From contig NZ_JACNME010000017.1 in NCBI RefSeq assembly GCF_014270065.1, forward strand, positions 1 through 64,000: a stretch of 64,000 nt of DNA, read 5' to 3'. A model generated the notes under the pieces. It was not told where the DNA came from and ran no database searches. It saw only the letters and a program-made list of their open reading frames with translations. Positions within the stretch are counted from its first letter, which is position 1, and the number at the start of each line of letters is the position of its first letter. Positions 47,205 to 63,186 of the stretch are shown piece by piece. Source of the DNA: Quadrisphaera sp. RL12-1S (GTDB taxonomy: Bacteria; Actinomycetota; Actinomycetes; Actinomycetales; Quadrisphaeraceae). Both the position numbers and the translations under genes were made by a program.

Positions 47205-47798
47205 TCAGGGGTGGGTGGCGCGGTAGCGCGCCACGAGGCCCTCGGGGAGGTCCTCGCGGGTCAGGGCGAACGTGCGGTGGTCCCGCCAGGCGCCGTCGAT
47301 GTGGAGGAACCCCGCGCGCAGCCCCTCGTCGCGGAACCCGAGCTTCTCCACCACCCGCAGGCTCGCGGCGTTCTCCGGGCGGATGTTCACCTCGACGCGG
47401 TGCAGCCCCACCCGCAGGCAGTGGTCCACCACCAGCGCGACCGCCCGGGGCACGATCCCGCGCCCGGCCTGGCGGCCGTCGATCCAGTAGCCGACGTGCG
47501 CGGAGCGCATGGCGCCCCACGTGATGCCGCCGACGGTGACCTGCCCGGCGAAGGCGCCGTCCACCTCGAGGGCGAACGGCATCGCCGTCCCCGACCTGCC
47601 CTGGCGGGACAGCTCCCAGACCAGGCCCGCGAAGGTGCGCACGGGCGCGGCGCCGTCGGGGTTGGTGGCCTCCCAGGGCCGCAGCCAGGCGCCGTTGGCG
47701 GCGCGGACCTCGCGCCACGCGGAGCTGTCGCGCACGCGCAGCGGGCGCAGCACCACCTCGCCGTCGTGCAGGACGGCGGGCCAGCCCGTGGTGCTCAC
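47205..47798 (-). CDS. GNAT N-acetyltransferase, RimJ/RimL type
   Basis: A 197-residue acetyltransferase. VVLRPLRVRDSSAWREVR, VGYWIDGRQAGRGIVPRAVALVVDHC (acetyl-CoA loop R/Q-x-x-G-x-G) and RVEVNIRPENAASLRVVEKLGFRDEG match RimJ/RimL enzymes that acetylate protein N-termini, often of ribosomal proteins. ATG start at 47798. In actinobacteria this gene commonly sits near moaC/moeA/galU as here, but it has an 18-base gap to moaB and may be cotranscribed. Confidence 0.9.
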   Translation of the reverse strand: MSTTGWPAVLHDGEVVLRPLRVRDSSAWREVRAANGAWLRPWEATNPDGAAPVRTFAGLVWELSRQGRSGTAMPFALEVDGAFAGQVTVGGITWGAMRSAHVGYWIDGRQAGRGIVPRAVALVVDHCLRVGLHRVEVNIRPENAASLRVVEKLGFRDEGLRAGFLHIDGAWRDHRTFALTREDLPEGLVARYRATHP

Positions 47799-48807: not shown

Positions 48808-50040
48808 TCATCGTCTCCCGCGCTCGAGGAGCATGCACCGCACGACGTCCCCGGGCTCCACGGACGTGGTGTCCTCGCCGGTGACGGCCAGGGCGTTGGC
48901 CCCGGCCAGCCCGAAGACGAGGTGGGAGCCGGGGCCGCTGGCGGGGCGGACCCGGGGGCGGCCGTCGTCGTCGGTGGTGACGACGGCGCGGGTGAACTGG
49001 CGCTTGCCGGGCGGGCTCGACCAGCCCTGCGTGGCGGTGGCCACGACGGCCGGCCGGTGCAGCTCCGCCTCGCCGAGCATCCGGCGCAGCGCCGGCCGCA
49101 CGAACACCTCGAAGGAGACGTAGGCGCTGACGGGGTTGCCGGGCAGGGTGAAGATCGGCACGCTGCGCCCGCCGCGGGTCAGCACGCCCAGGCCCTGCGG
49201 CATGCCGGGCTGCATGGCCACCCTGGTGAACTCCACGGTGCCGAGGCGGCTCAGCACCTCCTTGACCACGTCGTAGGCGCCGGCGCTGACGCCGCCGGAG
49301 GTGACGATGACGTCGGAGCCCTCGAGCTGGCCCTCCAGCACGGACAGGAGGCGCTGGGGGTCGTCGTCGACGATGCCCACGCGGGTGGCGCGCGCGCCGA
49401 CGTCCAGGGCGGCCGCGGTCAGCGCGGTGGAGTTGGCGTCCACCACCTGCCCGAACCCCGCGGGACGGCCCGGGTCCACCAGCTCGCTGCCGGTGCTCAG
49501 CACCGACACCCGCGGCGCGGGCAGCACGCGGGCGCGCTCGCGCCCGACGGCCGCGAGCAGCGCGACGTGGCGCACCGACAGCCGCGTGCCCGCCGCCACC
49601 AGGGTGGTGCCGGGCCGGACGTCCTCCCCGGCGCGGCGCACGTGCAGGCCCTCGGGCACCGCGCGGCGCACGAGCACCGTGGCCACGCCGCCGTCGGTGT
49701 CCTCGACGGGCACCACGGCGGTGGCCCCGGGGGGCACCGGGGCGCCGGTCATGATGCGCGCGGCGGCGCCGGCCGCCAGGGGCGCGACCTCGCGCACCCC
49801 TGCCGGCAGGTCGGCCACCACGGGCAGGGAGACGGGTGCGTCAGCGCGCGCCGTGGCGACGTCGGCGTGCCGGACGGCGTACCCGTCCATGGCGGAGCCG
49901 TCGAAGGCGGGCAGCGAGGAGGTCGCGACGACGTCCTCGGCGAGCACGCAGTCGACGGCGTCCAGGAGCGGCAGCTCGACGGGGGCGAGGGGGGAGACAG
50001 CAGCCAGGCAGGCGGCCAGGTGCTCCTCGACCGAGCGCAC
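48808..50040 (-). CDS. moeA: Molybdopterin molybdenumtransferase MoeA (Glp)
   Basis: A 410-residue enzyme that inserts molybdate into adenylated molybdopterin. It has SLPAFDGSAMDGYAV (about 42-56), RIMTGAPVPPGA, VDANSTAL, VTSGGVSAGAYDVV and FTLPGNPVSAYVSFEVF, all MoeA signatures. Length is usual. The start appears to be GTG at 50040. Six bases from the galU stop, so probably cotranscribed with galU, an arrangement common in actinobacteria. No molybdenum-cofactor riboswitch is evident upstream. Confidence 0.95.
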   Translation of the reverse strand: MRSVEEHLAACLAAVSPLAPVELPLLDAVDCVLAEDVVATSSLPAFDGSAMDGYAVRHADVATARADAPVSLPVVADLPAGVREVAPLAAGAAARIMTGAPVPPGATAVVPVEDTDGGVATVLVRRAVPEGLHVRRAGEDVRPGTTLVAAGTRLSVRHVALLAAVGRERARVLPAPRVSVLSTGSELVDPGRPAGFGQVVDANSTALTAAALDVGARATRVGIVDDDPQRLLSVLEGQLEGSDVIVTSGGVSAGAYDVVKEVLSRLGTVEFTRVAMQPGMPQGLGVLTRGGRSVPIFTLPGNPVSAYVSFEVFVRPALRRMLGEAELHRPAVVATATQGWSSPPGKRQFTRAVVTTDDDGRPRVRPASGPGSHLVFGLAGANALAVTGEDTTSVEPGDVVRCMLLERGRR

Positions 50041-51056: not shown

Positions 51057-51674
51057 GTGGACGACCAGCAGCAGGGCCGCCCGGTGGAGACGGCCCCCCG
51101 GACGGCGGACGACCAGGCGCCCGGCAAGGCGGCGCTGCGCGCCGGCGTGCGCGCCGCCCGCCGAGCCCTCGACGACGACGAGCGCGCCGCGCTCGACGCG
51201 GCCCTTGCGCGCGCGGCGCTCGCCGACGGCTCCCCGCTGGCGGCGCTCGCGCCGGGCGCCGTGGTGGCCCTGTACGACTCCCGCCCCACCGAGCCGGGCA
51301 CGCGCGCGCTGCGGGCGGCGCTGGCCGCGCGGGGCGCCGTCGTCGTCCTCCCGGTGGTGGTGGGCGCGGCCCCGCTGGCGTGGGTGGTCGACGCCCCGGG
51401 CGCGCCCGCCCGTCCGGAGGGGCTGGCGGGGGCGGCGGCGGTGCTGCTGCCCGCGCTGGCCGTGGACGGCAGCGGGTCGCGCCTGGGCCAGGGCGGCGGC
51501 CACTACGACCGGACGCTGGCGCTGCTGCCGCCCGAGGGCTCCCCCGGCAGGCCGCTGCTGGCCGCGGTGGTCCGCGAGCCGGAGGTGCTGGCCGCGGGTG
51601 AGCTGCCCCGCGAGCCCCACGACGTCCGCGTCGACGCCGCCCTGACCCCCGCCGGCTGGACCGCCCTGCGCTGA
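51057..51674 (+). CDS. 5-formyltetrahydrofolate cyclo-ligase
   Basis: A 205-residue enzyme that returns 5-formyl-THF to 5,10-methenyl-THF using ATP. An N-terminal Lys/Arg region (KAALRAGVRAARRAL), YDSRPTEPGTRAL and the ATP-binding signature GSRLGQGGGHYDRTLALL (about 142-158) identify it. GTG at 51057. In many actinobacteria it sits divergent to galU and near the FmdB gene; here five genes lie between them. Gap 51675-51794 holds no gene. Confidence 0.93.
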   Translation: MDDQQQGRPVETAPRTADDQAPGKAALRAGVRAARRALDDDERAALDAALARAALADGSPLAALAPGAVVALYDSRPTEPGTRALRAALAARGAVVVLPVVVGAAPLAWVVDAPGAPARPEGLAGAAAVLLPALAVDGSGSRLGQGGGHYDRTLALLPPEGSPGRPLLAAVVREPEVLAAGELPREPHDVRVDAALTPAGWTALR

Positions 51675-51794: not shown

Positions 51795-53357
51795 ATGACG
51801 GTCGACGACCTCAACGTCGCGGTGCTCGTCGGCGCGCTGGTGCTGGTGGTGGCGGTCTTCGCGGTGCGCCTCTCGGTCGGCACCGGCACCCCGTCGCTGC
51901 TGCTGTACCTCGCCCTCGGCGTGGCGCTCGGCGAGGACGGGCTGGGCATCCAGTTCGACGACTACGACCTCACGCAGGTGCTGGGGTACGGCGCGCTGGT
52001 CATGATCCTCGCCGAGGGCGGCCTGACCACGCGGTGGGCCTCGATCCGGCAGGCGATCGCCCCGGCGGCGCTGCTGGCGACGCTCGGCACCGCGGTCTCG
52101 GTGGTGGTGGTGGGCGCCGTGGCGCACTGGGCGCTCGGCGTCGACTGGGCCACCGGGATGCTGCTCGGCGCCGTCGTCTCCTCCACCGACGCGGCAGCGG
52201 TGTTCTCGGTGCTCCGGCGCGCTCCGCTGCCGCACCGCCTGGGGGGCCTGCTCGAGGCGGAGTCGGGGTTCAACGACGCGCCCGTCGTCATCGCCGTGGT
52301 CTCCCTGACCTCCGTGCTGGGCGGGGAGTCCTCCCACGGCTGGGGCTTCCTGGTGTTCGAGGCGGGGGCCGAGCTGGTGGGCGGCGCCGCGATCGGGCTG
52401 GCGCTGGGCTGGCTGGGCGCGCTGGGCCTGCGGCGCGTGGCGCTGCCCGCCTCGGGCCTGTACCCGATCACCGTGCTGGCGGTCTGCGCGCTCGCCTACG
52501 GGCTGAGCGCCGAGGTGCACACCTCCGGCTTCATCGCCGTCTACCTCGCGGGCCTGGTGCTGGGCAACGCCGAGCTGCCGCACCGCCCCGCCACCCGCGG
52601 CTTCGCCGAGGGCGTGGGCTGGCTGGCGCAGATCGGGCTGTTCGTGCTGCTGGGGCTGCTGGTCTCGCCCTCCGACATCCCCGGGCAGGTGGTGCCCGCG
52701 CTCGTGGTGGGGTTCGCCCTGCTGCTGGTGGCGCGGCCGCTGTCGGTGCTGGTCTCGGTGTCGTGGTTCAAGGTGCCCGTCCGCGACCAGGTGCTGCTCA
52801 GCTGGGGCGGCCTGCGCGGCGCGGTGCCCATCGTGCTGGCCACGGTGCCCGCCGCGGCCGGCGTGCCCGGCACCGAGGGCGTGGTGGAGATGGTGTTCGT
52901 GCTGGTGGTGGCCTTCACCCTGGTGCAGGCGCCGACCCTGCCGTGGGTGGCGCGGCGCCTGGGCATCAGCGAGCCGGCCGTGCGGGACCTCGAGGTGGAG
53001 TCGAGCCCGCTGGAGGAGATCGGCGCCGACGTGCTGCAGGTCAAGGTGGGCCCGGGCTCGCACCTGCACGGCCTGGAGGTCTTCGAGCTGCGCCTGCCCG
53101 AGGGCGCCGAGGTCTCCCTGCTCGTGCGCGACGGCCGGGCCCGCGTCCCCACCCGCACCACCACCCTGCAGCGCGGCGACGACCTGCTGGTGGTCGCCGT
53201 CTCCGGGGTGCGCGAGCTCACCGAGGAGCGGCTGTTCGCGCTGTCCGAGCGCGGCAGGCTGGCGGGCTGGACGACGCCGGGGGCCACCCGGGTGCCGGAG
53301 CTGCGACCGGCGCCCGGCCGCGACCGTACAGTGCCGCAGCGTGACTCCCAGCGCTGA
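51795..53357 (+). CDS. K+/H+ antiporter (CPA1/CvrA type) with TrkA-C domain
   Basis: A 520-residue protein. Twelve or so helices cover 1-390 with GLTTRWASIRQAIAPAALLATLGT, VVSSTDAAAVFSVLRRAPLP (ion-binding Asp) and EAESGFNDAPVVIAV (the conserved ND of CPA1). A cytoplasmic domain follows (about 395-500) with VGPGSHLHGLEVFELRLPEGAEVSLLVRDG, an RCK_C/TrkA-C domain that binds regulatory nucleotides. It exports K+ or Na+ in exchange for H+. ATG start with GGGAGG upstream. It overlaps the XRE gene by 17 bases. Confidence 0.9.
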   Translation: MTVDDLNVAVLVGALVLVVAVFAVRLSVGTGTPSLLLYLALGVALGEDGLGIQFDDYDLTQVLGYGALVMILAEGGLTTRWASIRQAIAPAALLATLGTAVSVVVVGAVAHWALGVDWATGMLLGAVVSSTDAAAVFSVLRRAPLPHRLGGLLEAESGFNDAPVVIAVVSLTSVLGGESSHGWGFLVFEAGAELVGGAAIGLALGWLGALGLRRVALPASGLYPITVLAVCALAYGLSAEVHTSGFIAVYLAGLVLGNAELPHRPATRGFAEGVGWLAQIGLFVLLGLLVSPSDIPGQVVPALVVGFALLLVARPLSVLVSVSWFKVPVRDQVLLSWGGLRGAVPIVLATVPAAAGVPGTEGVVEMVFVLVVAFTLVQAPTLPWVARRLGISEPAVRDLEVESSPLEEIGADVLQVKVGPGSHLHGLEVFELRLPEGAEVSLLVRDGRARVPTRTTTLQRGDDLLVVAVSGVRELTEERLFALSERGRLAGWTTPGATRVPELRPAPGRDRTVPQRDSQR

Positions 53358-53949
53358 CGACGACGGCGACAGGTCCCCCGCCGGCGGCGCCGCGGACCTG
53401 GACGGGCTCGTCGCCGGCGTGGGCGCCCGGGTCCGGGCCCTGCGCTCGCAGCGGGGCCTGACGCTGTCCGAGCTGGCCGACGCGACCGGGCTGAGCGCCT
53501 CGATGGTCTCGACCGTGGAGAGGGGGCGCACCGCGCCCTCCCTGGGGACGCTGGCGCGCCTCGCGCAGGGCCTGGGCGTGAGCGTGGCGTCGCTGTTCGC
53601 GGCCGCTCCCGGCGAGGGGTCGCCCGTCCTGCGGGCGGCCGACCAGATCGTGGACACCACACCGGGCGGGCTGGTGCGCCGGCTCGCCGTCTTCCAGCCC
53701 GACAACGACGTCGAGGTCTACGTGGACGAGTACCCGCCCGGCACCAGCCACGCCGCGCGCCCCTCCCAGCACCCGGGCCAGGAGTACGGGGTGCTGCTGG
53801 AGGGGTCGCTGGAGGTCGAGCTCGGCGACGAGGTCCACCTCGTGGAGGAGGGGGACGCCGTCCACTACGAGGCCAAGCAGGCGCACCTCATCCGCAACAC
53901 CGGTGGCACCCCGGCGCGCGCCGTGTGGGTCAACGTCCGCCGCCTCTGA
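53341..53949 (+). CDS. XRE-family regulator with C-terminal cupin domain
   Basis: A 202-residue regulator. The HTH reads VRALRSQRGLTLSELADATGLSASMVSTVERG (about 32-63); the cupin domain is in 110-200 with HPGQEYGVLLEGSLEVEL and GDAVHYEAKQAHLIRNTG. Proteins of this kind sense small molecules and control neighbouring transport or catabolic genes. GTG start 17 bases before the antiporter stop. The downstream permease and hydrolase genes are likely targets. Confidence 0.9.
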   Translation: MTPSADDDGDRSPAGGAADLDGLVAGVGARVRALRSQRGLTLSELADATGLSASMVSTVERGRTAPSLGTLARLAQGLGVSVASLFAAAPGEGSPVLRAADQIVDTTPGGLVRRLAVFQPDNDVEVYVDEYPPGTSHAARPSQHPGQEYGVLLEGSLEVELGDEVHLVEEGDAVHYEAKQAHLIRNTGGTPARAVWVNVRRL

Positions 53950-53996
53950 CCCGCCCCGGCCCGCCCCGGCCCGCCCCACGCGGGCCGAGGGGAGGA

Positions 53997-54060
53997 GCCG
54001 GTAACGCCGCCGTAACCGGCGCAGGGGTCGCGGGCAACACCGGAGCAACAACCGGGTTGT
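53997..54060. promoter_or_regulatory. Inverted repeats in the leader of the NCS2 permease gene
   Basis: GCCGGT/ACCGGC (53997-54020) flanks two GTAAC words, and ACAACCGGGTTGT (54048-54060) is a perfect 13-bp palindrome next to a -10-like TAGGAAT. Good candidates for the XRE-cupin operator. Upstream 53950-53980 has 10-bp CCCGCCCCGG repeats. Confidence 0.4.
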
Positions 54061-54125
54061 AGGAATTGCACTGTCAGCGAAGTCGAACGACTCGCTCCCG
54101 CACTCCGACGACCCGAGGTGGCCCC

Positions 54126-55541
54126 ATGCCCGCCCCCGCCCCCGTGCTCTCCATCGGCCCCGAGGACCGGCTCCCCGCCGGCAGGACGGCGCTCTTCGGC
54201 GTCCAGCACCTCCTGGCCCTCACCGGCATCTTCATCTTCCCGGTGCTCCTGGGCGCCGCCCTGCACCTGCAGACCGCGCAGGTGGCCCAGATCGTCCAGG
54301 CGTGCTTCCTGCTGACGGGCGTCGTCACCCTGCTGCAGTCGAGCCGCCTGCTCCGGCTGCCCGTCGTGCAGGGCCCGACGGCGGCGTTCTTCGTGGCGCT
54401 CATGACCTCGGGCGCCACCTACGGCCTCGGCACGGCCTTCGGGTCCATGGTGGTCGCAGGCCTCGTCTTCATGGCCCTGACCGTCCCGCTCGGCAGGCTC
54501 GGGGTCTTCGGCCACGTGTCGCGCGTGGCCACGCACCCGGTGGTGTTCGGCTCCCTGTTCGTGATCATCGGCGCCCAGCTCGCCGCCATCGGGCTGCCCA
54601 ACTGGTTCGGCGTGCCCGGCACGCCCGCCTTCGGCGTCCGCAGCTTCGCCGTGGCCGCCGTCACCGCCGTGGTGGTGCTCGCCTGCCTCGTCCTGGGCCG
54701 TGAGGGCCTCGTCAAGCGGGGGGCGGTGGTCTGGGGCATCGCCGCGGGCACCGCGGTGGCCGCCGCCCTGGGCACCTGGGCCCCCGCCGCGCCGGCCGCG
54801 GTGCTGGGCGCGCCGCACCCGCCCCCCTTCGGCTTCGGGGTGGCGTGGCCCGCGGTGGTCCTCATGCTGCTGGCCTTCCTGCAGGCCGGTACCGAGTCGA
54901 TGGGCATGTACTCCCTCATCGGCGGCTGGACCGGGCAGCAGGTCTCCTTCCAGCGCGTCAACCGCGGGCTCTTCACCGAGTTCGCCGGATGCGTCGTCGG
55001 TGGTCTCTTCGGCGGCATCGGCACCACCTCCTACCCGGAGAACGCCGGCATCGTCCGCGTGACCGGCGTCGGCAGCCGGCGCGTCACGATGGCGGCCGGG
55101 GCCTTCGCCGTCGTCCTCGCCTTCGTCCCGGCCGTCAGCCTCTTCGTCGCCGGCCTGCCGGGCCCGGTGCTGGCGGCCGCGTCCACCATCCTCTTCGGGA
55201 CCATCGCCGTGGGGGGCATCCAGATGCTGGCCGACGTCGAGTGGGACGACATCAACCTCGCCGTCGCCGGCCCGTCCATCCTCGTCGCGCTCGGCGTGCA
55301 GTTCCTCCCGGCCGACGTCGCGAAGGCCGCCCCGCCCGCGCTGGCCGGGCTCGTCACCAGCCCCATGATGGTCGGCGTCGTCCTGCTGCTCGTGCTCCAC
55401 GCCCTGCTGAACCTGGGCCTGCGCCCGCTGCTCGCGAGGCGCACGCCCGAGGTGCCCGAGGTGGACACGGCGGCGGGCCCGGAGGCGGTCGTGCTGCCCA
55501 GCCAGGCCCCGCGCGCCGCTGACGAGCTGACCAGGGCCTGA
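54126..55541 (+). CDS. NCS2-family nucleobase/cation permease
   Basis: A 471-residue membrane protein with about 12-14 helices. ALFGVQHLLALTGIFIFPVLLG at the start, VVQGPTAAFFVALM, the Q/E motif in FLQAGTESMGMYSLI (about 255-269) and GIGTTSYPENAGIV (about 298-311) match the nucleobase:cation symporter 2 family that takes up uracil, xanthine, urate or relatives. ATG at 54126 with GAGGTGG upstream. Followed three bases later by the hydrolase gene. Confidence 0.88.
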   Translation: MPAPAPVLSIGPEDRLPAGRTALFGVQHLLALTGIFIFPVLLGAALHLQTAQVAQIVQACFLLTGVVTLLQSSRLLRLPVVQGPTAAFFVALMTSGATYGLGTAFGSMVVAGLVFMALTVPLGRLGVFGHVSRVATHPVVFGSLFVIIGAQLAAIGLPNWFGVPGTPAFGVRSFAVAAVTAVVVLACLVLGREGLVKRGAVVWGIAAGTAVAAALGTWAPAAPAAVLGAPHPPPFGFGVAWPAVVLMLLAFLQAGTESMGMYSLIGGWTGQQVSFQRVNRGLFTEFAGCVVGGLFGGIGTTSYPENAGIVRVTGVGSRRVTMAAGAFAVVLAFVPAVSLFVAGLPGPVLAAASTILFGTIAVGGIQMLADVEWDDINLAVAGPSILVALGVQFLPADVAKAAPPALAGLVTSPMMVGVVLLLVLHALLNLGLRPLLARRTPEVPEVDTAAGPEAVVLPSQAPRAADELTRA

Positions 55542-55544
55542 CCC

Positions 55545-56282
55545 GTGGAGGACCTGCAGCTCACGCACCGCGTCCACGGCGACCAGCGGCCGCTGGACCC
55601 GACCGGTGACTTCGCCGAGTGGCTCCAGCCCGCCGCCGCCGCCGTCGTGTCGATCGACATGCACGACGGCCACCTCTCCGAGGACCCCGGATGCCCCTGC
55701 CCGGCCCCCCGAGGGCGGGAGGTGGTGGCACCGGTCGACGCGTTCCACCGCGCGGCGCGCGCGGCCGGCGTGCCCGTGATCCACGTCCGCTCCGAGGTCC
55801 GCGCCTCCGGCGTGGACGACGTGCGCGGCGTCCCCAGCGCCTGGCGCACCACCTTCCCCCAGTGGGTGGGTCCCATCCCGGGCGCCGACCAGCACGCGCT
55901 GGCGGGGAGCCGCTGGACGAGGTTCACCACCGAGGTCCTCCCCGGTGACGAGGTGGTGACCGGCAAGAAGCGCCTGTCCGCCTTCTACCCCACCGACCTC
56001 GACTTCCTGCTGCGGCAGATGGGCGTCAGGACCGTGGTGCTGGACGGGATCATGGCCGACTGCTGCGTCCTCAACACGGCCTTCGACGCCAGCAACCTCA
56101 GCTACCGCGTCGTCGTGCTTGAGGACCTGGTCCGCGGCACCGACGCGGCGCTGGAGGCCTCGGCGCTGGCGGTGGTCTCGCTCCACCTCGGACTGGTCAC
56201 GTCCTCCTCCGACCTCGTGAGGGCCTGGTCAGCGCTGGCCCCACCCGAGCAGCGGGTCGCCCCGGTGGCGGCCGTGCGGTGA
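55545..56282 (+). CDS. Isochorismatase-like cysteine hydrolase
   Basis: A 245-residue hydrolase of the isochorismatase fold. The triad is visible: Asp in VVSIDMHDGH (about 37), Lys in TGKKRLSAF (about 143) and Cys in IMADCCVLNTAFDASNL (about 172). Relatives hydrolyse biuret, ureidoacrylate, N-carbamoylsarcosine or nicotinamide. The extra CPCPAPRG segment near 50-57 is unusual. Next to an NCS2 permease it may act on a ring-opened purine or pyrimidine, but the substrate is not fixed by sequence. GTG start; stop overlaps the MFS GTG. Confidence 0.87.
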   Translation: MEDLQLTHRVHGDQRPLDPTGDFAEWLQPAAAAVVSIDMHDGHLSEDPGCPCPAPRGREVVAPVDAFHRAARAAGVPVIHVRSEVRASGVDDVRGVPSAWRTTFPQWVGPIPGADQHALAGSRWTRFTTEVLPGDEVVTGKKRLSAFYPTDLDFLLRQMGVRTVVLDGIMADCCVLNTAFDASNLSYRVVVLEDLVRGTDAALEASALAVVSLHLGLVTSSSDLVRAWSALAPPEQRVAPVAAVR

Positions 56283-57529
56283 TCACCGGCAGCCCCGCGG
56301 CTGCTCGGACCACGAGGGACTCCCCCGCACCCCCGGTGCCGGGGGGTCCCTCGTGGCGCGCGCCGCTGACCGTCGTCGGCGTGGTCGTCGCCTCCACCGC
56401 CCTGTCCACCGCCCCCACCCCGCTGTTCCCCCTCTACGCCGCGCGCGACGGTCTGACGCCCACGGCCACGACCGCCGTCTTCGCCGTCTTCGCCGTCGGT
56501 GTGGTGGTGGGCCTGGCCGGGGCGGGCAGGTCCAGCGACCGGTGGGGCCGGCGCAGGGTGCTGCGGGCCGCGGCCCTCCTGGAGGTGGTGGCCGCCGCGG
56601 TGCTCGCCGCGGTCCCGGGCACCGCCGGCCTGGTGGCCGGACGGGTGCTCTGCGGCCTGGGCGTCGGCGTGCTGGCGTCCACGGCGTCGGTCGCGGTGCG
56701 CGAGCTGGCCGCCCGGGCCCCCGAGGTGGCGCGGCGGCGCTGGTCCGCGGCCGCAGGCGCCATGAGCATGGCCGGGCTCGGCCTCGGACCGCTCCTCGCC
56801 GGTGCGCTGGCCGAGCTGGCACCGGCACCGCTCCACCTCGTCTACGGGGTGCTCGCGGTGGCGCTCGCGGCGGCGTGGCGGGCGCTGAGGCGCCTGCCGG
56901 AGACGGCTCCGGCCGCGGGAGGAGCGCCGCCGACGCCGCCCGGCGGACCAGGTGCCGGCGGCGCGCGGCTGGGCGCGGCGCCTCTGGTCCTGGCCCTCAC
57001 GTCCTTCGCCGTGACCGGCTTCTACGGCGGCCTCACCCCCGAGGCCCTGCGCGGCGCGGGTGGCCCGGCGGGCCCGCTGGCCGCGGGTGCCGCCATCGGG
57101 TCGGTGTTCCTGGCCGGGGCGGTCGCTCCGCAGGTGGTGCCCACCGGGCGTCGCGGCGGGCGGCTGCTGGGAGCTGTGGCCGTCGCCGTGGGGACCGTCG
57201 CCTCCGCCGTGGCGCTGGCCGTGGGTGCGCCGTGGCTGCTGCTGGTCGCCGCTCCGCTGGCGGGGGCCGGCAGCGGCGTGCTGTTCGCCTCCGCGGTCGG
57301 CACGGCCGCGCGGGTTGCCCCGGCGCGCCGGGCGGCCGCGGCCAGGGCGGTGTTCCTGGCCGCGTACACGGGTCTGGCGGTGCCGGTGCTGGGGGTGGGC
57401 CTGCTGCTGGGGGTGGTGCCCCTCCGCACCGCCGTGCTCCCCCACGCCGCGCTGGTCCTCGCGCTCCTGGGGGCGGGTCTGTGGGCCGGGCGGGTCCGTG
57501 CACCGCGGGAACAGAGCGACCAGCGCTAG
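56279..57529 (+). CDS. MFS transporter
   Basis: A 416-residue protein with 12 helices. The loop GRSSDRWGRRRVLRAAALLEV (about 80-100) matches motif A of the superfamily (G-x-x-x-D-x-x-GRR), and helix 5 carries AAGAMSMAGLGLGPLLAG (motif C), typical of drug or metabolite exporters. Pro/Arg-rich N-terminus (1-30). GTG overlaps the hydrolase stop by four bases; the last member of this run. It may export products of the hydrolase or a toxic analogue. Ends just before a CIRCE element. Confidence 0.85.
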   Translation: MITGSPAAARTTRDSPAPPVPGGPSWRAPLTVVGVVVASTALSTAPTPLFPLYAARDGLTPTATTAVFAVFAVGVVVGLAGAGRSSDRWGRRRVLRAAALLEVVAAAVLAAVPGTAGLVAGRVLCGLGVGVLASTASVAVRELAARAPEVARRRWSAAAGAMSMAGLGLGPLLAGALAELAPAPLHLVYGVLAVALAAAWRALRRLPETAPAAGGAPPTPPGGPGAGGARLGAAPLVLALTSFAVTGFYGGLTPEALRGAGGPAGPLAAGAAIGSVFLAGAVAPQVVPTGRRGGRLLGAVAVAVGTVASAVALAVGAPWLLLVAAPLAGAGSGVLFASAVGTAARVAPARRAAAARAVFLAAYTGLAVPVLGVGLLLGVVPLRTAVLPHAALVLALLGAGLWAGRVRAPREQSDQR

Positions 57530-58034: not shown

Positions 58035-58133
58035 GTGCTGTCGTCCGCCCACAGGCCGGTCTCGCGGCACCGCTGTCCACAGGCGGTGGGCCCGTCCCTG
58101 CGCCGACCGCGCTCCCGCCGCGACGCTGCGGCG

Positions 58134-58907
58134 ATGACCACCACCTGGCCGCCGCCGTCGCGGCTGCGCACCGCGCCTCCTGGCGCGCCCTCCTCCCCCC
58201 GAGCGGCCGGCGGGCCGGGCGCCGCGCGCCGCCGGCTGCGGCGCGCGCTGCGACGGGCCCGCCGGCCGCTGGCGGCGCTGCTGCTGGCCGCCGCCACGGG
58301 CCTGGTGGCGACGGCGCTCGTGCAGTCCGAAGAGGCCGGCGGCGGGGTGCCGGTGCTGGTGGCGGCGCAGGACCTGCCGGCCGGGGCGGCGGTGGGGCCG
58401 GGTTCGCGCGCGGCGGTGGTGCCCCCCGCGGCGGTGCCCTCGGGGGCGCTCTCCCCGGAGGACGTCGCCGCCTCCGGGAGCGCGGCGGACGCCCGGCTGG
58501 CCGCCCCGGTCCGCACCGGCGAGGTCATCACCGACGTGCGGCTGCGCGGCGGCGACGTGCTCGCCTCGCTCGAGCCCGGCCAGGTGGCCGTGCCCGTGGG
58601 CGTCAGCTCACCCCTGCCGGAGGGGCTCGTGGTGCCGGGGGCGCAGGTCGCGGTGCTGGCGGCGGCGCCCGAGGGCCCGCCGGTCCCCTCCGGGGACGGC
58701 GACGTGACGGGCGGGCAGCAGCCCCCGAGCGGGGTGCTCGTGCGCAGCGCGACCGTGCTCGTCGTGAGCAGCGACCCCCTCACCCGGGGCCTGCTCGCCG
58801 CGGGCAGCAGCAGCACCGTGGTGGTGGTGGCGCTGGACGACGACGACGCGGCCCGCGTGGCCGCCGCCACGGCCAACGGCGGGGTGGTGCTCGCCCGGGC
58901 CGCCTGA
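58134..58907 (+). CDS. SAF-domain membrane protein (CpaB/RcpC-like)
   Basis: A 257-residue protein with an Arg-rich cytoplasmic start, one membrane helix (about 45-64) and an exported SAF domain: VPVLVAAQDLPAGAAVGPGSRAAV at about 74-97, RTGEVITDVRL, and VAVPVGVSSPLPEGLVVPGAQV. RcpC/CpaB proteins of this kind assist Flp pilus assembly; in actinobacteria a lone copy beside the FmdB gene is common. Its ATG at 58134 has no strong RBS. Ends 17 bases from the next convergent gene. Confidence 0.78.
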   Translation: MTTTWPPPSRLRTAPPGAPSSPRAAGGPGAARRRLRRALRRARRPLAALLLAAATGLVATALVQSEEAGGGVPVLVAAQDLPAGAAVGPGSRAAVVPPAAVPSGALSPEDVAASGSAADARLAAPVRTGEVITDVRLRGGDVLASLEPGQVAVPVGVSSPLPEGLVVPGAQVAVLAAAPEGPPVPSGDGDVTGGQQPPSGVLVRSATVLVVSSDPLTRGLLAAGSSSTVVVVALDDDDAARVAAATANGGVVLARAA

Positions 58908-58924: not shown

Positions 58925-59188
58925 TCAGCCCCAGTGGGGAGGGCGGTCGGCGAGCAGCCGCTGGGCCTCGGCGGCCCAGCGGCGGTCGTCCTCGGAGCCC
59001 GCGTGACCCGCGTGACCCGCGTGACCCGCGTGACCCGCGTGGTCGGCGTGGTCGGCGGGTGCCAGGACCGGGGCCTCCACCTCCTCGCCGGGAGCTCCGG
59101 TGGGCGGCGCGACCACGCGGCGACGGGCCCGCCCCGGACGGCGCCCGCCGCCGGTGGTGGTGGTGGTGGTCGTGGTGGTCTCAGGCAC
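58925..59188 (-). CDS. Small His-repeat protein downstream of the helicase gene
   Basis: An 87-residue protein. A Thr run (4-12) and an Arg/Pro stretch lead to repeated HADHAGHAGHAG (about 46-63, encoded by 9-bp GTGACCCGC-type units) and a charged end EDDRRWAAEAQRLLADRPPHWG. The GTG at 59188 overlaps the helicase stop by eight bases, which supports its reality through translational coupling. The His repeats could bind metal. The conserved-looking part is the final 20 residues. No family known to me. Confidence 0.6.
   Translation of the reverse strand: MPETTTTTTTTTGGGRRPGRARRRVVAPPTGAPGEEVEAPVLAPADHADHAGHAGHAGHAGHAGSEDDRRWAAEAQRLLADRPPHWG
59000..59046. repeat. 9-bp tandem repeats coding for HAG units
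   Basis: About five copies of GTGACCCGC lie in a row, followed by two diverged GTGGTCGGC copies, within the small gene at 58925. Being a multiple of three the array can change length in frame. Confidence 0.75.
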
Positions 59189-62100
59189 CGCTGGACAGCT
59201 CCCGCACCACGGCGGCCACCGGTGCCGTCGGGTCGTCGAAGAGCTCGCGGGCGCTGACCCTCACCACGGCCCAGCCGAGGTGGCCGAGCTGCTCGGGCAC
59301 CACCAGCTCCCGCTGCACCAGGTCGCCCACGGGGTCGTCGTCGGTGCCGGCGGGGATGTCGGTGAGCACCGCCACCGCGGGGCCGTCCGCGCCCGCGGGC
59401 AGCACCACGAGGTCGGGCACCGAGCCGGTGACCAGCGCCCGCGCCCCGCGGCCGCCGAGGCGGTCCGACAGGCGGGACAGCAGCGGGTCCGGAGCGGCCC
59501 CGGCCGGGGCCCCGTGCCCCGCGGCGAGGGCGCGCAGGGGCTCGAGCGGGTCCGCGGCGGCGGGCTCCTCCAGCGACAGCAGCAGCTGGCGCAGGGCGGA
59601 GGCGCCGGTGGAGGTGCACTGGGAGGCCTCCAGCACCTCCCCCGCCACGCAGCTGACCACGGTGAGGCGCTTGCGGGCGCGGGTGAGCACCGACGCCAGC
59701 CAGCGGTGCCCGTCGGCGTCGTCGAGGGGCCCGAAGCGGTGCACGAAGCGGCCCAGCGGCGTGACGCCCAGGCCCACCGAGAACACGACGGCGTCGCGCA
59801 CGGTGTCGGCGCAGCGCTCGACGTCGGTCACCACGAAGCTCTCGCGGCGCCGCCGCCGCAGGAACGCGGCGAGCTCGGGCCGGGCGGGCAGCGCGGCGCG
59901 GACGGCGTCGGCGATGCGGCGCGCGTGGGAGCGGGTCAGGGCCACCACGGCGAGCGACTCGTTCGGGTGCTCGCGCACGTGGCTGAGCACGAGGTCCACC
60001 ACGGCGGCCACCTCGCCGTCCGGGCTGTTGACCACGCCGTCGGCGTCCGGGCGGCCCGTGACGTCGCTGACGCGGCGCAGCCGCACCGGCGGGCGCCCCG
60101 GAGGGCACGGCACGGCGTGCTCGCCGGTCGTGGTGCCGGGGACGGCCCGCGCGAGCGCCGCGAGCTGCAGCGGCATCCGGTGCTGCCAGTCGAGGCGCAG
60201 GGTGGGGAGCACCTGCTCGAGGGCGTCGAAGACGCTGCGGCGCGAGCCGCGCGGCAGCGGGGCCTCGTCAGCGCGGCGCGGCGCCACCCGCACGGGCGTG
60301 GGACCGCCCGGGTCGCCGACCACCACCAGCTGGCGCCCGGCGGAGGCGGCGAGCACCGCCTCCGGCACGCCCACGCGGTGGGCGGCGAGCACCAGCACCA
60401 CGTCGTAGCGGCGCTGGGAGGCGAGCTCCACCGAGAGCGCCAGCGGTCCGCTCACCCGGCACGGCGCGCTGGCCGACAGGGCCGTGGCGCCGCGGACGCG
60501 GTGCACGGCGGCGGCGCGGCGGTGCTTCTCGCGCGCGGCGAGGGCGGCGCTGGCCTCGGCGTGGCCGACGGCGTCGAGGCCGCCGAGCGCGGGGTCGGCC
60601 GCCACGAGGGTGTCGAGCACGGAGCGCCACCACGAGCGGCGCAGCTCCACCACGGCCTGGTCCGGGTCGAGCCCGCGCCGGCGGGCCTCCTCCAGCAGCG
60701 GCACCAGGCCGCGGCGCTCCAGCACGGCGAGCAGCTGGGCGCGCTGCGGCAGGTCGGCGAGGGTGCCGGAGTCGGCGACGAGGGCGCCGAGCCGCTCGGT
60801 GAGCGCGTGCCAGGGCTCGTCGGCGAGGGCCCCGCCGCCGGTGGTGGGTGCGAGCACCGCGGACAGGGCGCTGACCTGGGCGACCACCTGGTCCAGCACC
60901 ACCTCGGCGGCCGGGACCCCCTGAGGCACGCGCGGCGGCGCGCCGGCGGAGTCCTCAGCGCGCCAGGCCTCCCAGTCGAGGCGGGCGCGCTCGGCGTCGA
61001 GGAGGGCGCCGTGCAGGTCGTCCAGGAGCACCCCGGGGCGCACCAGCTCCCGCGCGGCGCGCTCGAGGCGGCGGCGCTCGAAGACGCCGTACCGGGGGCC
61101 GGTGGCCCGCTGGGCGGGCGGGGCGGTGGCGTCGACCAGCGGCGTGAGCGGCCTGTCGAAGACGGCCGGGAGGAAGGAGTCCAGGCAGTCGCGCACGCGC
61201 GCCAGCAGGTCCAGCTGGGCCTGCGCGTCGGCCACGCAGCCTGGGACGCGCAGGCCGCTGCCCCCGGCGAGCACGGTCGCCTGGCGGCGCAGGGCGGGCA
61301 GGAGGTCGTCGCGCAGGGCGCGCGCCTCGTCGAGCGCCTCGGCGGCCTCGGCGCGGTTGGCCAGCGCGGCCCCGGACCAGGCGGTGTCGCCCACCCGGGC
61401 CGACAGCGCCCCCAGGTCCACCGCCTCGCGCAGCTCCGCGGCGGCCTTCTCGCGCTCGGCGGCGTCCATGGCGCGCAGCGCGGCCGGGGCCAGGCGCACC
61501 GGGTCGGGCCCGGGCGGGAGCACGGTGAGGGCCGCCATGGCCTCCAGGGCCGACACCCCCCACGGTCCGCGGCGGGTGTGCAGGGCGGCGCGGTGGCGGC
61601 CCAGCGCCGCGACGACGTCGCCGTCGCCCCCCGCGCCCCCGGGGCCGGAGGTCCCGGAGGGGGCCGCCGCCTCGACGGGGATCACCGGGAGCGGTCCGGT
61701 GCTGTTGGGGTCGACCGACCCCGTCGCGTCCACGAGGAGGTCCCCGAGGCCGCGCGCCGCCAGGCGGCGGGCGACGTCCTCGGCCTCCTGCTGCTGCCCG
61801 GCCACCAGCAGCACGCTGCGGCCGGTGGCGGCCAGCGCCGCGACGGTGGTGGCGGCCACCTGCGTGGCGCCGGTGCCCGGGCCCGCCTCCACGCGCACGG
61901 AGCGGCCGGCGAGGACGGTGTCCAGGACGCGGCGCTGGGAGGCGTCCAGCGGCAGCACCTGGACGTCGTCGGGGTCGACGCCGCGCGCGCCCTCGGGCAG
62001 CTCGACGGCGGTGGTGGGGCTCTGCAGGCGGGCGCGGGAGCGCGGGTCCCCGGCCAGCGCCTGGGCCACGTCGGAGCCGGCGAGGTCGTCCGCGGCGCGG

Positions 62101-62975
62101 TCCAGCTCGGCCACCAGGGACCGGGCGACGTCCACGAGGACGGTGACGAGCAGACCGGGCTTGACCTGGATGTCGGGGGCGGAGACCCGGGTGAGGGAGC
62201 GCAGGCGCTCCAGCGCCGGTGCCGGGTCGAAGCCGTGGGCGTGCACCGACAGCGCCGCCAGCCCGGCCGGGTCCACCGGGACGCCGCGCCGCTGCAGCTC
62301 GCGCACGAGCGCCGGGTTGGTGCGCACCGGTCCGCCCAGGCCGATCTCGTAGTCGACGGGGCCGGAGCCGCGGGCGTGCAGCTCCGCGGGCCGCAGCAGC
62401 AGCGGGGTGCTCACGGTGGTGCCGCTGGCCTCGTCGTGCCAGGAGGCCAGTCCCACCGCGAGCACGCAGGCCTGCAGGCCGTGCTCGTCGGCCAGGGCGG
62501 CGGCCTCGCCGCGGATGGCGCGAGCGCGCCGGCGCGCCTCCTCGAGCGCACCGGTCTCCCGGAAGAGGTGGGACAGGCGCGTGGGCCGGCCGGCCAGGAG
62601 CAGGGCGACGCCGGAGGGGTGCGCGGAGGCGAGCTCGAGGGAGCCGTCGCGCAGGTCCTCGGCGGTCATGAGCGGCTCGGGACCCCCCAGGGAGGCCAGC
62701 TCGGTGCGCCAGCCGGCCAGGGCCGCGTCGAGGCCGCGGCCGCGCGGGGGCTGGGCCGCGGAGCGCCGGCCGGTCGTGGAGGCACCGCTCGGGCCCCCTC
62801 CCGAGGGCGCGGAGCCGGGCTCACCAGCAGCGCTGTCGGGGCCGGGCGCGGGAGGCTCGCCCGGGGCGGCCGCGCCACGCGGCTCACCGGGGGTCACCGA
62901 CAGCGGCCGGTCCTGACCCCCAGCCGCCCCGGCACCAGCAGCCCCACCCGCCACGCCCATCAGCCCTTGAGTCAC
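59181..62975 (-). CDS. DUF4011-type SF1 helicase/nuclease-like protein with degenerate active sites
   Basis: A 1264-residue protein. A Pro/Gly-rich start (1-80) leads to a DUF4011-like region (about 80-250). The P-loop reads VEAGPGTGATQVA (about 362-374), with Ala where Lys is required. At Walker B, YDVVLVLAAHRVGVPE (about 860) has Leu-Ala in place of Asp-Glu. Later helicase motifs are better kept: LDWQHRM (about 930) and LTRARKRLTVVS (about 1100). The C-terminal domain (1180-1262) aligns by pattern with a Vsr/DUF559-like nuclease, but the ECDG-type site reads VLTDIP. GTG start with TAGCCT close upstream, possibly leaderless. It may act as a non-catalytic DNA- or RNA-binding protein. Confidence 0.72.
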   Translation of the reverse strand: MTQGLMGVAGGAAGAGAAGGQDRPLSVTPGEPRGAAAPGEPPAPGPDSAAGEPGSAPSGGGPSGASTTGRRSAAQPPRGRGLDAALAGWRTELASLGGPEPLMTAEDLRDGSLELASAHPSGVALLLAGRPTRLSHLFRETGALEEARRRARAIRGEAAALADEHGLQACVLAVGLASWHDEASGTTVSTPLLLRPAELHARGSGPVDYEIGLGGPVRTNPALVRELQRRGVPVDPAGLAALSVHAHGFDPAPALERLRSLTRVSAPDIQVKPGLLVTVLVDVARSLVAELDRAADDLAGSDVAQALAGDPRSRARLQSPTTAVELPEGARGVDPDDVQVLPLDASQRRVLDTVLAGRSVRVEAGPGTGATQVAATTVAALAATGRSVLLVAGQQQEAEDVARRLAARGLGDLLVDATGSVDPNSTGPLPVIPVEAAAPSGTSGPGGAGGDGDVVAALGRHRAALHTRRGPWGVSALEAMAALTVLPPGPDPVRLAPAALRAMDAAEREKAAAELREAVDLGALSARVGDTAWSGAALANRAEAAEALDEARALRDDLLPALRRQATVLAGGSGLRVPGCVADAQAQLDLLARVRDCLDSFLPAVFDRPLTPLVDATAPPAQRATGPRYGVFERRRLERAARELVRPGVLLDDLHGALLDAERARLDWEAWRAEDSAGAPPRVPQGVPAAEVVLDQVVAQVSALSAVLAPTTGGGALADEPWHALTERLGALVADSGTLADLPQRAQLLAVLERRGLVPLLEEARRRGLDPDQAVVELRRSWWRSVLDTLVAADPALGGLDAVGHAEASAALAAREKHRRAAAVHRVRGATALSASAPCRVSGPLALSVELASQRRYDVVLVLAAHRVGVPEAVLAASAGRQLVVVGDPGGPTPVRVAPRRADEAPLPRGSRRSVFDALEQVLPTLRLDWQHRMPLQLAALARAVPGTTTGEHAVPCPPGRPPVRLRRVSDVTGRPDADGVVNSPDGEVAAVVDLVLSHVREHPNESLAVVALTRSHARRIADAVRAALPARPELAAFLRRRRRESFVVTDVERCADTVRDAVVFSVGLGVTPLGRFVHRFGPLDDADGHRWLASVLTRARKRLTVVSCVAGEVLEASQCTSTGASALRQLLLSLEEPAAADPLEPLRALAAGHGAPAGAAPDPLLSRLSDRLGGRGARALVTGSVPDLVVLPAGADGPAVAVLTDIPAGTDDDPVGDLVQRELVVPEQLGHLGWAVVRVSARELFDDPTAPVAAVVRELSSGA

Positions 62976-63097
62976 CCGGAAAGGCTAGTGCGCCCAGCCG
63001 GTGGCCAGCACGGCACGACCGGTGCGCCGCGCCAGGCGCGTCAGTGGGCGTCAGCGAGTGCGGTCCGGCGGCCCCGCCCGGCTACCCTGGGGCCTGC

Positions 63098-63169
63098 GCC
63101 CTGGTAGCTCAGCGGAAGAGCAACCGCCTCCTAAGCGGTAGGTCGCGGGTTCGAGTCCCGCCTGGGGCA
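63098..63169 (+). tRNA. tRNA-Arg (anticodon CCT)
   Basis: A 72-base cloverleaf: acceptor GCCCTGG with CTGGGGC (two wobble pairs), D arm GCTC/GAGC, anticodon stem ACCGC/GCGGT around CTCCTAA giving CCT, T arm GCGGG/CCCGC with TTCGAGT, discriminator A. CCA is not encoded. TACCCT at 63083-63088 may be its -10 box. It reads AGG codons. Confidence 0.95.
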
Positions 63170-63186
63170 CCGCTGCGCGGTGGCCC

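Follow-up and report, generated by a model that had tools for sequence, protein, structure and literature searches.

Within the window, by which we mean the whole stretch of 64,000 nucleotides analysed here (positions 1 to 64,000 of contig NZ_JACNME010000017.1 from Quadrisphaera sp. RL12-1S), a gene on the minus strand at 59181..62975 encodes a 1264-residue protein related to DUF4011-type helicase-nucleases that has lost its ATPase and nuclease catalytic residues, has retained the full domain order and is under purifying selection on its amino-acid sequence. We consider it, with a probability of about one half, to be an old, selected and vertically inherited pseudo-helicase-nuclease, derived from a DUF4011/DUF3320-type superfamily 1B (SF1B) protein resembling Hhe and ProA, that would now act as a non-catalytic nucleic-acid-binding scaffold or sensor. 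A selected and fully dead member of a family whose named members act in phage defence would show domestication into core cellular roles, and, being a single deletable gene, it carries a clear prediction: binding without catalysis. Moreover, the automated label 'DNA helicase', borne by its homologue in Actinomyces oris, names an activity that is very likely absent.

Loss of the helicase and nuclease catalytic residues

A scan of genome contigs returned four loci with best segments 82–94% identical to the query, from 'Streptomyces sp. NP160' (L001), Quadrisphaera granulorum (L002), a metagenome-assembled 'Actinomycetales bacterium' (L003) and Quadrisphaera sp. INWT6 (L004); together with the window protein, their products make up the five proteins that we call Quadrisphaera-type. 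A tblastn search of a plasmid collection matched 221 records, none over more than 80% of the query, and supplied a single distant homologue among actinomycetes, which is annotated as 'DNA helicase' in A. oris WVU627 (L005; 31% identity over 1128 columns). Ten outgroups were taken from the 24 rows besides A. oris among the matches listed (25 of 289 records), and the tenth, from Gemmatirosa (L010), was excluded because its longest frame could be aligned in the nuclease part alone. The intact reference set thus consists of nine plasmid-borne proteins of bacteria and archaea (L006–L009 and L011–L015), from Cylindrospermopsis, Haloferax, Comamonas, Azospirillum, Thioclava, Gluconobacter, Halalkalicoccus, Bosea and Mesorhizobium.

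The motif alignment of these 15 proteins contained 155 columns that are invariant across the nine intact relatives. The motifs carry the names that are in general use for superfamily 1 (SF1) helicases. All nine intact relatives carry Walker A and B, motifs III, V and VI and the nuclease residues, unlike the window protein. In its Walker A (GPGTGAT, residues 365–371, 61863..61883; all motifs lie on the minus strand), the lysine at position 370 is replaced by Ala in all five Quadrisphaera-type proteins and by Val in A. oris, so that no GxxGxGK[ST] signature is left. In Walker B (DVVLVLAAH, residues 858–866, 60378..60404), Leu-Ala (L863-A864) stands where Asp-Glu is found in active SF1B enzymes: position 863 is Leu in the five and still Asp in A. 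oris, and position 864 is Ala in all six of these dead proteins. Both substitutions had been read by the original prediction from the window alone, and the alignment with intact relatives bears them out. The P-loop change is fixed among the five, and the differently worded P-loop of A. oris is equally dead, which agrees with the earlier suggestion that the change typifies an actinobacterial group.

The other motifs follow the same course. The Gln of motif III (GDPGGPTP, residues 887–894, 60294..60317), at position 891, has given way to Gly in the five and to Arg in A. oris; motif V (residues 1050–1061, 59793..59828) has changed from QGDERD to ADTVRD, with G1057 and E1059 gone from all six dead proteins; and motif VI (residues 1081–1101, 59673..59735) has changed from GGERRLNVAITRA to ADGHRWLASVLTRA, with R1099 retained. 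This arginine and R933 of motif IV (WQHRM, residues 930–934, 60174..60188) are kept in the five and are both gone from A. oris, and the Q-motif glutamine, Q347, persists in all six. The motif losses were found in five of five Quadrisphaera-type proteins and in none of the nine intact relatives, and the residues at the lost motifs are identical across the window protein and L001–L004, except at D1188 of the nuclease. The window protein contains no G....GK[ST] and no GK[ST] anywhere, and only four lysines (272, 510, 817 and 1102), none of them near the P-loop; an alternative intact P-loop, raised in the original prediction as a finding that would overturn it, is therefore excluded. A misaligned motif was rejected as well, since hhalign and MAFFT agree on the register around the P-loop, the hhalign print stopping before Walker B.

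Lysine is scarce throughout the window, with a median of 0.49% over 40 candidate genes chosen by length and a codon-position guanine-plus-cytosine (GC) filter, 10 of which have none, against 0.32% in the helicase-nuclease-like gene. A lysine loss specific to this gene was thus rejected.

The nuclease core, which is MTES_1575/Vsr-like (residues 1188–1226, 59298..59414, minus strand), is altered as well. Its Glu-Cys-Asp (ECD) reads LTD; E1166 and the Glu of this triplet, E1204, are Leu in six of six dead proteins; H1214 is gone from all six (Asp in the window protein), at a position whose register is less sure owing to a three-residue gap just before it; and the distal D1223 and R1226 are gone from the five and retained in A. 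oris, D1221 being absent from the window protein as well. An active Vsr-like nuclease depends on the Glu, the Asp and the His of its ECD...H site, and the window protein no longer has all three. D1206 is retained in all six, and D1188 in three including the window protein, with Glu in L003 and L004 and a loss in A. oris. The earlier claim that the nuclease site lacks its acidic residues thus stands for E1166, E1204 and the distal Asp, and fails for D1188 and D1206. The Pfam model REase_MTES_1575 (PF18741, cut-off 38.2 bits) did not hit the window protein in a search that admitted E values as high as 1, whereas the A. oris homologue scored 46.7 bits.

The protein can nevertheless be placed in its family. 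In a profile–profile comparison with hhalign, it matched the intact family at a probability of 100% over 1150 alignable columns with the domain order retained, and the profile of the intact family matches the structures of SMUBP2, UPF1, Sen1 and DNA2. Sequence searches of the PDB gave only weak matches (best E 0.7 for the window protein and 0.15 for profile A2). The N-terminal domain at residues 80–330 (61986..62738, minus strand) is DUF4011-like, with a Pfam match at residues 145–205 that lies marginally above the gathering cut-off (PF13195, 23.4 versus 22.2 bits, E 6.3e-5); the A. oris homologue, at 13.7 bits, falls below it.

Purifying selection on the gene

The ratio of non-synonymous to synonymous substitution (dN/dS), computed pairwise by the Nei–Gojobori method (NG86), was 0.11–0.26 over the gene in the five Quadrisphaera-type pairs computed, of ten possible, 0.01–0.23 in three helicase blocks (residues 331–480, 821–980 and 981–1135) and 0.08–0.25 in the nuclease. 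Over residues 80–1264, differences were concentrated at codon position 3 in ten of ten pairs; the window gene and L002, for example, differ at 93, 64 and 394 sites of codon positions 1, 2 and 3, and 309 of the 367 differences between the window gene and L001 fall at position 3. These values show purifying selection on the encoded amino-acid sequence, and they sustain the original view of a DUF4011-type helicase-nuclease relative that has dead motifs and is retained by selection.

That view had initially been argued from the absence of stops, which is a poor argument at the 76.6% GC of this DNA. In three pairs examined in six frames, the frame of the gene had no stop and was the only one free of stops in every pair; antisense phase 0 had 1, 0 and 1, and the other four frames had 5 to 34. 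An open frame alone is weak evidence because antisense phase 0 is nearly stop-free, and dN/dS is the stronger argument. The ease with which long open frames arise here could favour a relic in slow decay whose frame stays open through high GC alone, but all five Quadrisphaera-type genomes and a member of a second order carry the gene at full length, and this explanation is very improbable because of the low dN/dS and the weight of third-position differences between the window gene and L001.

An antisense open frame of 1335 residues (59100–63107, plus strand) spans the entire helicase-nuclease-like gene. It is an artefact of high GC and a caution against arguments from intact frames.

The gene begins with GTG and ends with TGA at 59181–59183. 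The start call is supported by the sequence TQGLMGVAG, which the alignment shows to be common to the N-termini of all five Quadrisphaera-type proteins. After this short conserved start, residues 1–79 (62739..62975, minus strand) form a fast-evolving tail rich in Ala, Pro and Gly, with dN/dS of 0.63–0.78. A promoter and terminator scan found none.

Locus conservation and age of the loss

The gene adjoins a tRNA-Arg(CCT) gene (63098..63171, plus strand) in the window, in L001–L004 and in A. oris; the tRNA gene lies on the opposite strand to the helicase-like gene in the window and L001–L004, and on the same strand in A. oris. Past its opposite end, a shared order of 5-formyltetrahydrofolate cyclo-ligase (51057..51674, plus strand; 82.5 bits, just under the cut-off of 84.9), the gephyrin-like Glp (48811..50040, minus strand) and a RimJ-like GNAT protein (47208..47798, minus strand) was found in the window, L002–L004 and A. 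oris; in L001, only the cyclo-ligase could be located, close to where the stretch examined stops. Quadrisphaera belongs to Kineosporiales and Actinomyces to Actinomycetales, and the locus is therefore common to two orders.

Among the intact-invariant columns, 61 are changed in both dead lineages, and in 21 of these the two lineages carry an identical replacement, as in E864A, E1166L, E1204L and C1205T. This pattern fits a history in which the glutamates of Walker B and of the nuclease would have been lost in a common ancestor and the P-loop lysine position would have diverged later, to Ala or Val, and it suggests that the catalytic loss may predate the split of the two orders. A 100/100 branch of the tree separates the six dead proteins from the others, but a single origin is unproved because the A. 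oris branch is long, the composition of several rows deviates and the tree has no established root. Convergent loss is possible because several of the 21 shared changes are easy hydrophobic exchanges, and closer intact actinobacterial relatives may lie outside the sample.

Carriage of the gene by phages was rejected, since a scan of viral contigs with two peptide patterns yielded no relative and a phage tblastn search yielded one record covering 7% of the query.

Two of the database names in this comparison deserve comment. The gene in L001 (NZ_VDMJ01000021.1, 'Streptomyces sp. NP160') is 94–95% identical to the window gene and lies beside the same tRNA gene; because it is the closest relative and shares this neighbour, L001 is probably a misnamed Quadrisphaera. 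The A. oris record (NZ_CP116225.1) is a 415-kb 'plasmid unnamed1' on which the tRNA-Arg, cyclo-ligase, Glp and GNAT genes follow one another as they do in the window and L002–L004; it may be a mislabelled piece of chromosome.

Candidate roles and flanking genes

In the pseudo-helicase-nuclease that we propose, ATP hydrolysis and nucleic-acid cutting would have been lost, and the cleft of two RecA domains together with the nuclease-like domain would persist as a static surface that binds single-stranded DNA (ssDNA), RNA or DNA ends and that could also bind a partner protein. By analogy, it may work like the inactivated SF1 helicase domains with which RecC and AddB, as parts of an active complex, search ssDNA for Chi. 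In PMC4824097, the SF1 domains of AddB and RecC are described as having lost most or all helicase motifs and as having been co-opted as ssDNA scanners. The likeness, the reuse of a dead SF1 fold, is one of working and not of membership: RecC and AddB are UvrD-like and sit in complexes with active subunits, whereas the structural matches of the intact relatives are SMUBP2, UPF1, Sen1 and DNA2. A further parallel is the pseudohelicase Utp25, a growth-essential protein with a helicase-like fold in which the motifs can be dispensed with (PMC9539457); it differs in being eukaryotic, DEAD-box-like and devoted to ribosome assembly. An open-access literature search found no description of the window protein.

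Several observations weigh against this interpretation. Taken one by one, the P-loop block (residues 363–374) and the Walker B block (856–880) are 100% and 96% invariant among the five; pooled, however, the motif blocks are 86.2% invariant against 76.9% for the rest, a value attained by 122 of 1185 circular shifts. The idea that the motif blocks as a whole are unusually conserved was thus not borne out, and a still-used cleft is left unsupported because these blocks together do not stand out clearly from the rest in conservation. Judged from the alignment, the divergence is broad and reaches beyond the catalytic sites: of the intact-invariant columns, those retained in all five number 17 of 29 for Gly/Pro, 21 of 62 for polar residues and 22 of 64 for hydrophobic or aromatic ones, so that Gly and Pro are better kept and polar residues are lost at much the same rate as hydrophobic ones. 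The fold would be that deduced from sequence; AlphaFold2, run with five similar sequences, returned a mean predicted local distance difference test (pLDDT) score of 33.1 for residues 80–1264 and 41.7 for 983–1264, low values that we think are due to the shallow alignment. Identity to A. oris is 31–32% for the helicase-like protein versus 47–51% for Glp and GNAT, that of the cyclo-ligase being patchy too (36–51%). Finally, the analysis revealed neither a partner nor an operon, a phenotype or a link to phage defence.

Some ATP binding or hydrolysis of a residual or unorthodox kind, in which the lysine-less P-loop would be aided by the Q-motif Gln and two Arg, could explain why Q347, R933 and R1099 and the whole P-loop block are kept in the five. 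We regard it as unlikely: the Walker A Lys, the Walker B Asp and Glu and the motif III Gln are all gone, no lysine lies near the P-loop, and A. oris lacks the two arginines too. Mimicry of an active architecture at full length would suit a protein that inhibits an active paralogue or a different helicase-nuclease, or regulates it in a dominant-negative manner; nothing speaks directly against this reading, which we likewise hold to be improbable. The sensor, scaffold and inhibitor roles named in the original prediction are all possible, and these data do not distinguish between them. A more specific form of the pseudo-helicase-nuclease hypothesis, doubtful as it stands, is that an ancient Hhe/UPF1-like (SF1B) protein with a defence-type ancestor was inactivated before Kineosporiales and Actinomycetales split and would now be a core-genome, nucleic-acid-reading subunit of an active machine, having arrived independently at the RecC/AddB trick. 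To our knowledge, pseudo-helicases have rarely been documented in bacteria beyond RecC and AddB.

The original prediction also raised phage defence. A conserved defence sensor would be a dead descendant of an Hhe/ProA-type protein that detects the proteins or nucleic acid of phages and passes the signal on through a partner, and the best curated matches are indeed to the anti-phage Hhe, ProA and PADLOC candidate PDC-S37. Several stretches of the models were matched significantly (three of Hhe and four of ProA), and the helicase and nuclease parts are the same. However, the window protein lacks the catalytic residues and scores far below the family cut-offs (NCBIfam ProA, NF058533, 173.9 versus 1500 bits; NCBIfam Hhe, NF042953, 110.8 versus 2000 bits). 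The PADLOC scores are 188.6 bits for PDC-S37 and 91 bits for Hhe. It is also shorter, at 1264 residues against the 1797 and 1903 positions of the Hhe and ProA models, a comparison made via family models. The low dN/dS would be unexpected for a fast-evolving defence gene, the locus is shared by two orders with named neighbours that are metabolic or housekeeping, and a scan of 10 neighbours showed no clear defence gene, only an HTH-cupin regulator (HTH, helix-turn-helix) matching PADLOC through its HTH part. In Pseudomonas aeruginosa, a DUF4011 core gene flanks a defence hotspot (PMC10250203), which would favour such a sensor. On balance, we find a defence sensor quite unlikely.

Another actinobacterial protein with the same helicase-nuclease pair is MTES_1575 of Microbacterium testaceum, which combines HEPN, transglutaminase, SF1 helicase and Vsr restriction endonuclease (REase) domains and is marked as active in the HEPN table of PMC3710099. 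The A. oris homologue matches the model named after it, whereas the window protein had no HEPN or transglutaminase match in searches at E up to 1.

On the side of the gene away from the tRNA, a gene convergent with it encodes an RcpC/CpaB-like protein (58035..58907, plus strand; Pfam 23.7 bits, below the cut-off of 28.8). A SAF-domain gene is convergent with the helicase gene in A. oris; tblastn with the A. oris MscL and SAF genes gave no match in the window or L001–L004, the RcpC/CpaB-like gene included. Compared with A. oris, the window has extra genes at 51795–57529, before the cyclo-ligase, for a Na/H exchanger, the HTH-cupin regulator, a xanthine/uracil-type permease, an isochorismatase-type hydrolase and a major facilitator superfamily transporter, which we would guess to be a catabolic or transport insertion. 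A short array of 4.9 perfect 9-base units (CCCGCGTGA) occupies 58998–59041, just downstream of the helicase-nuclease-like gene.

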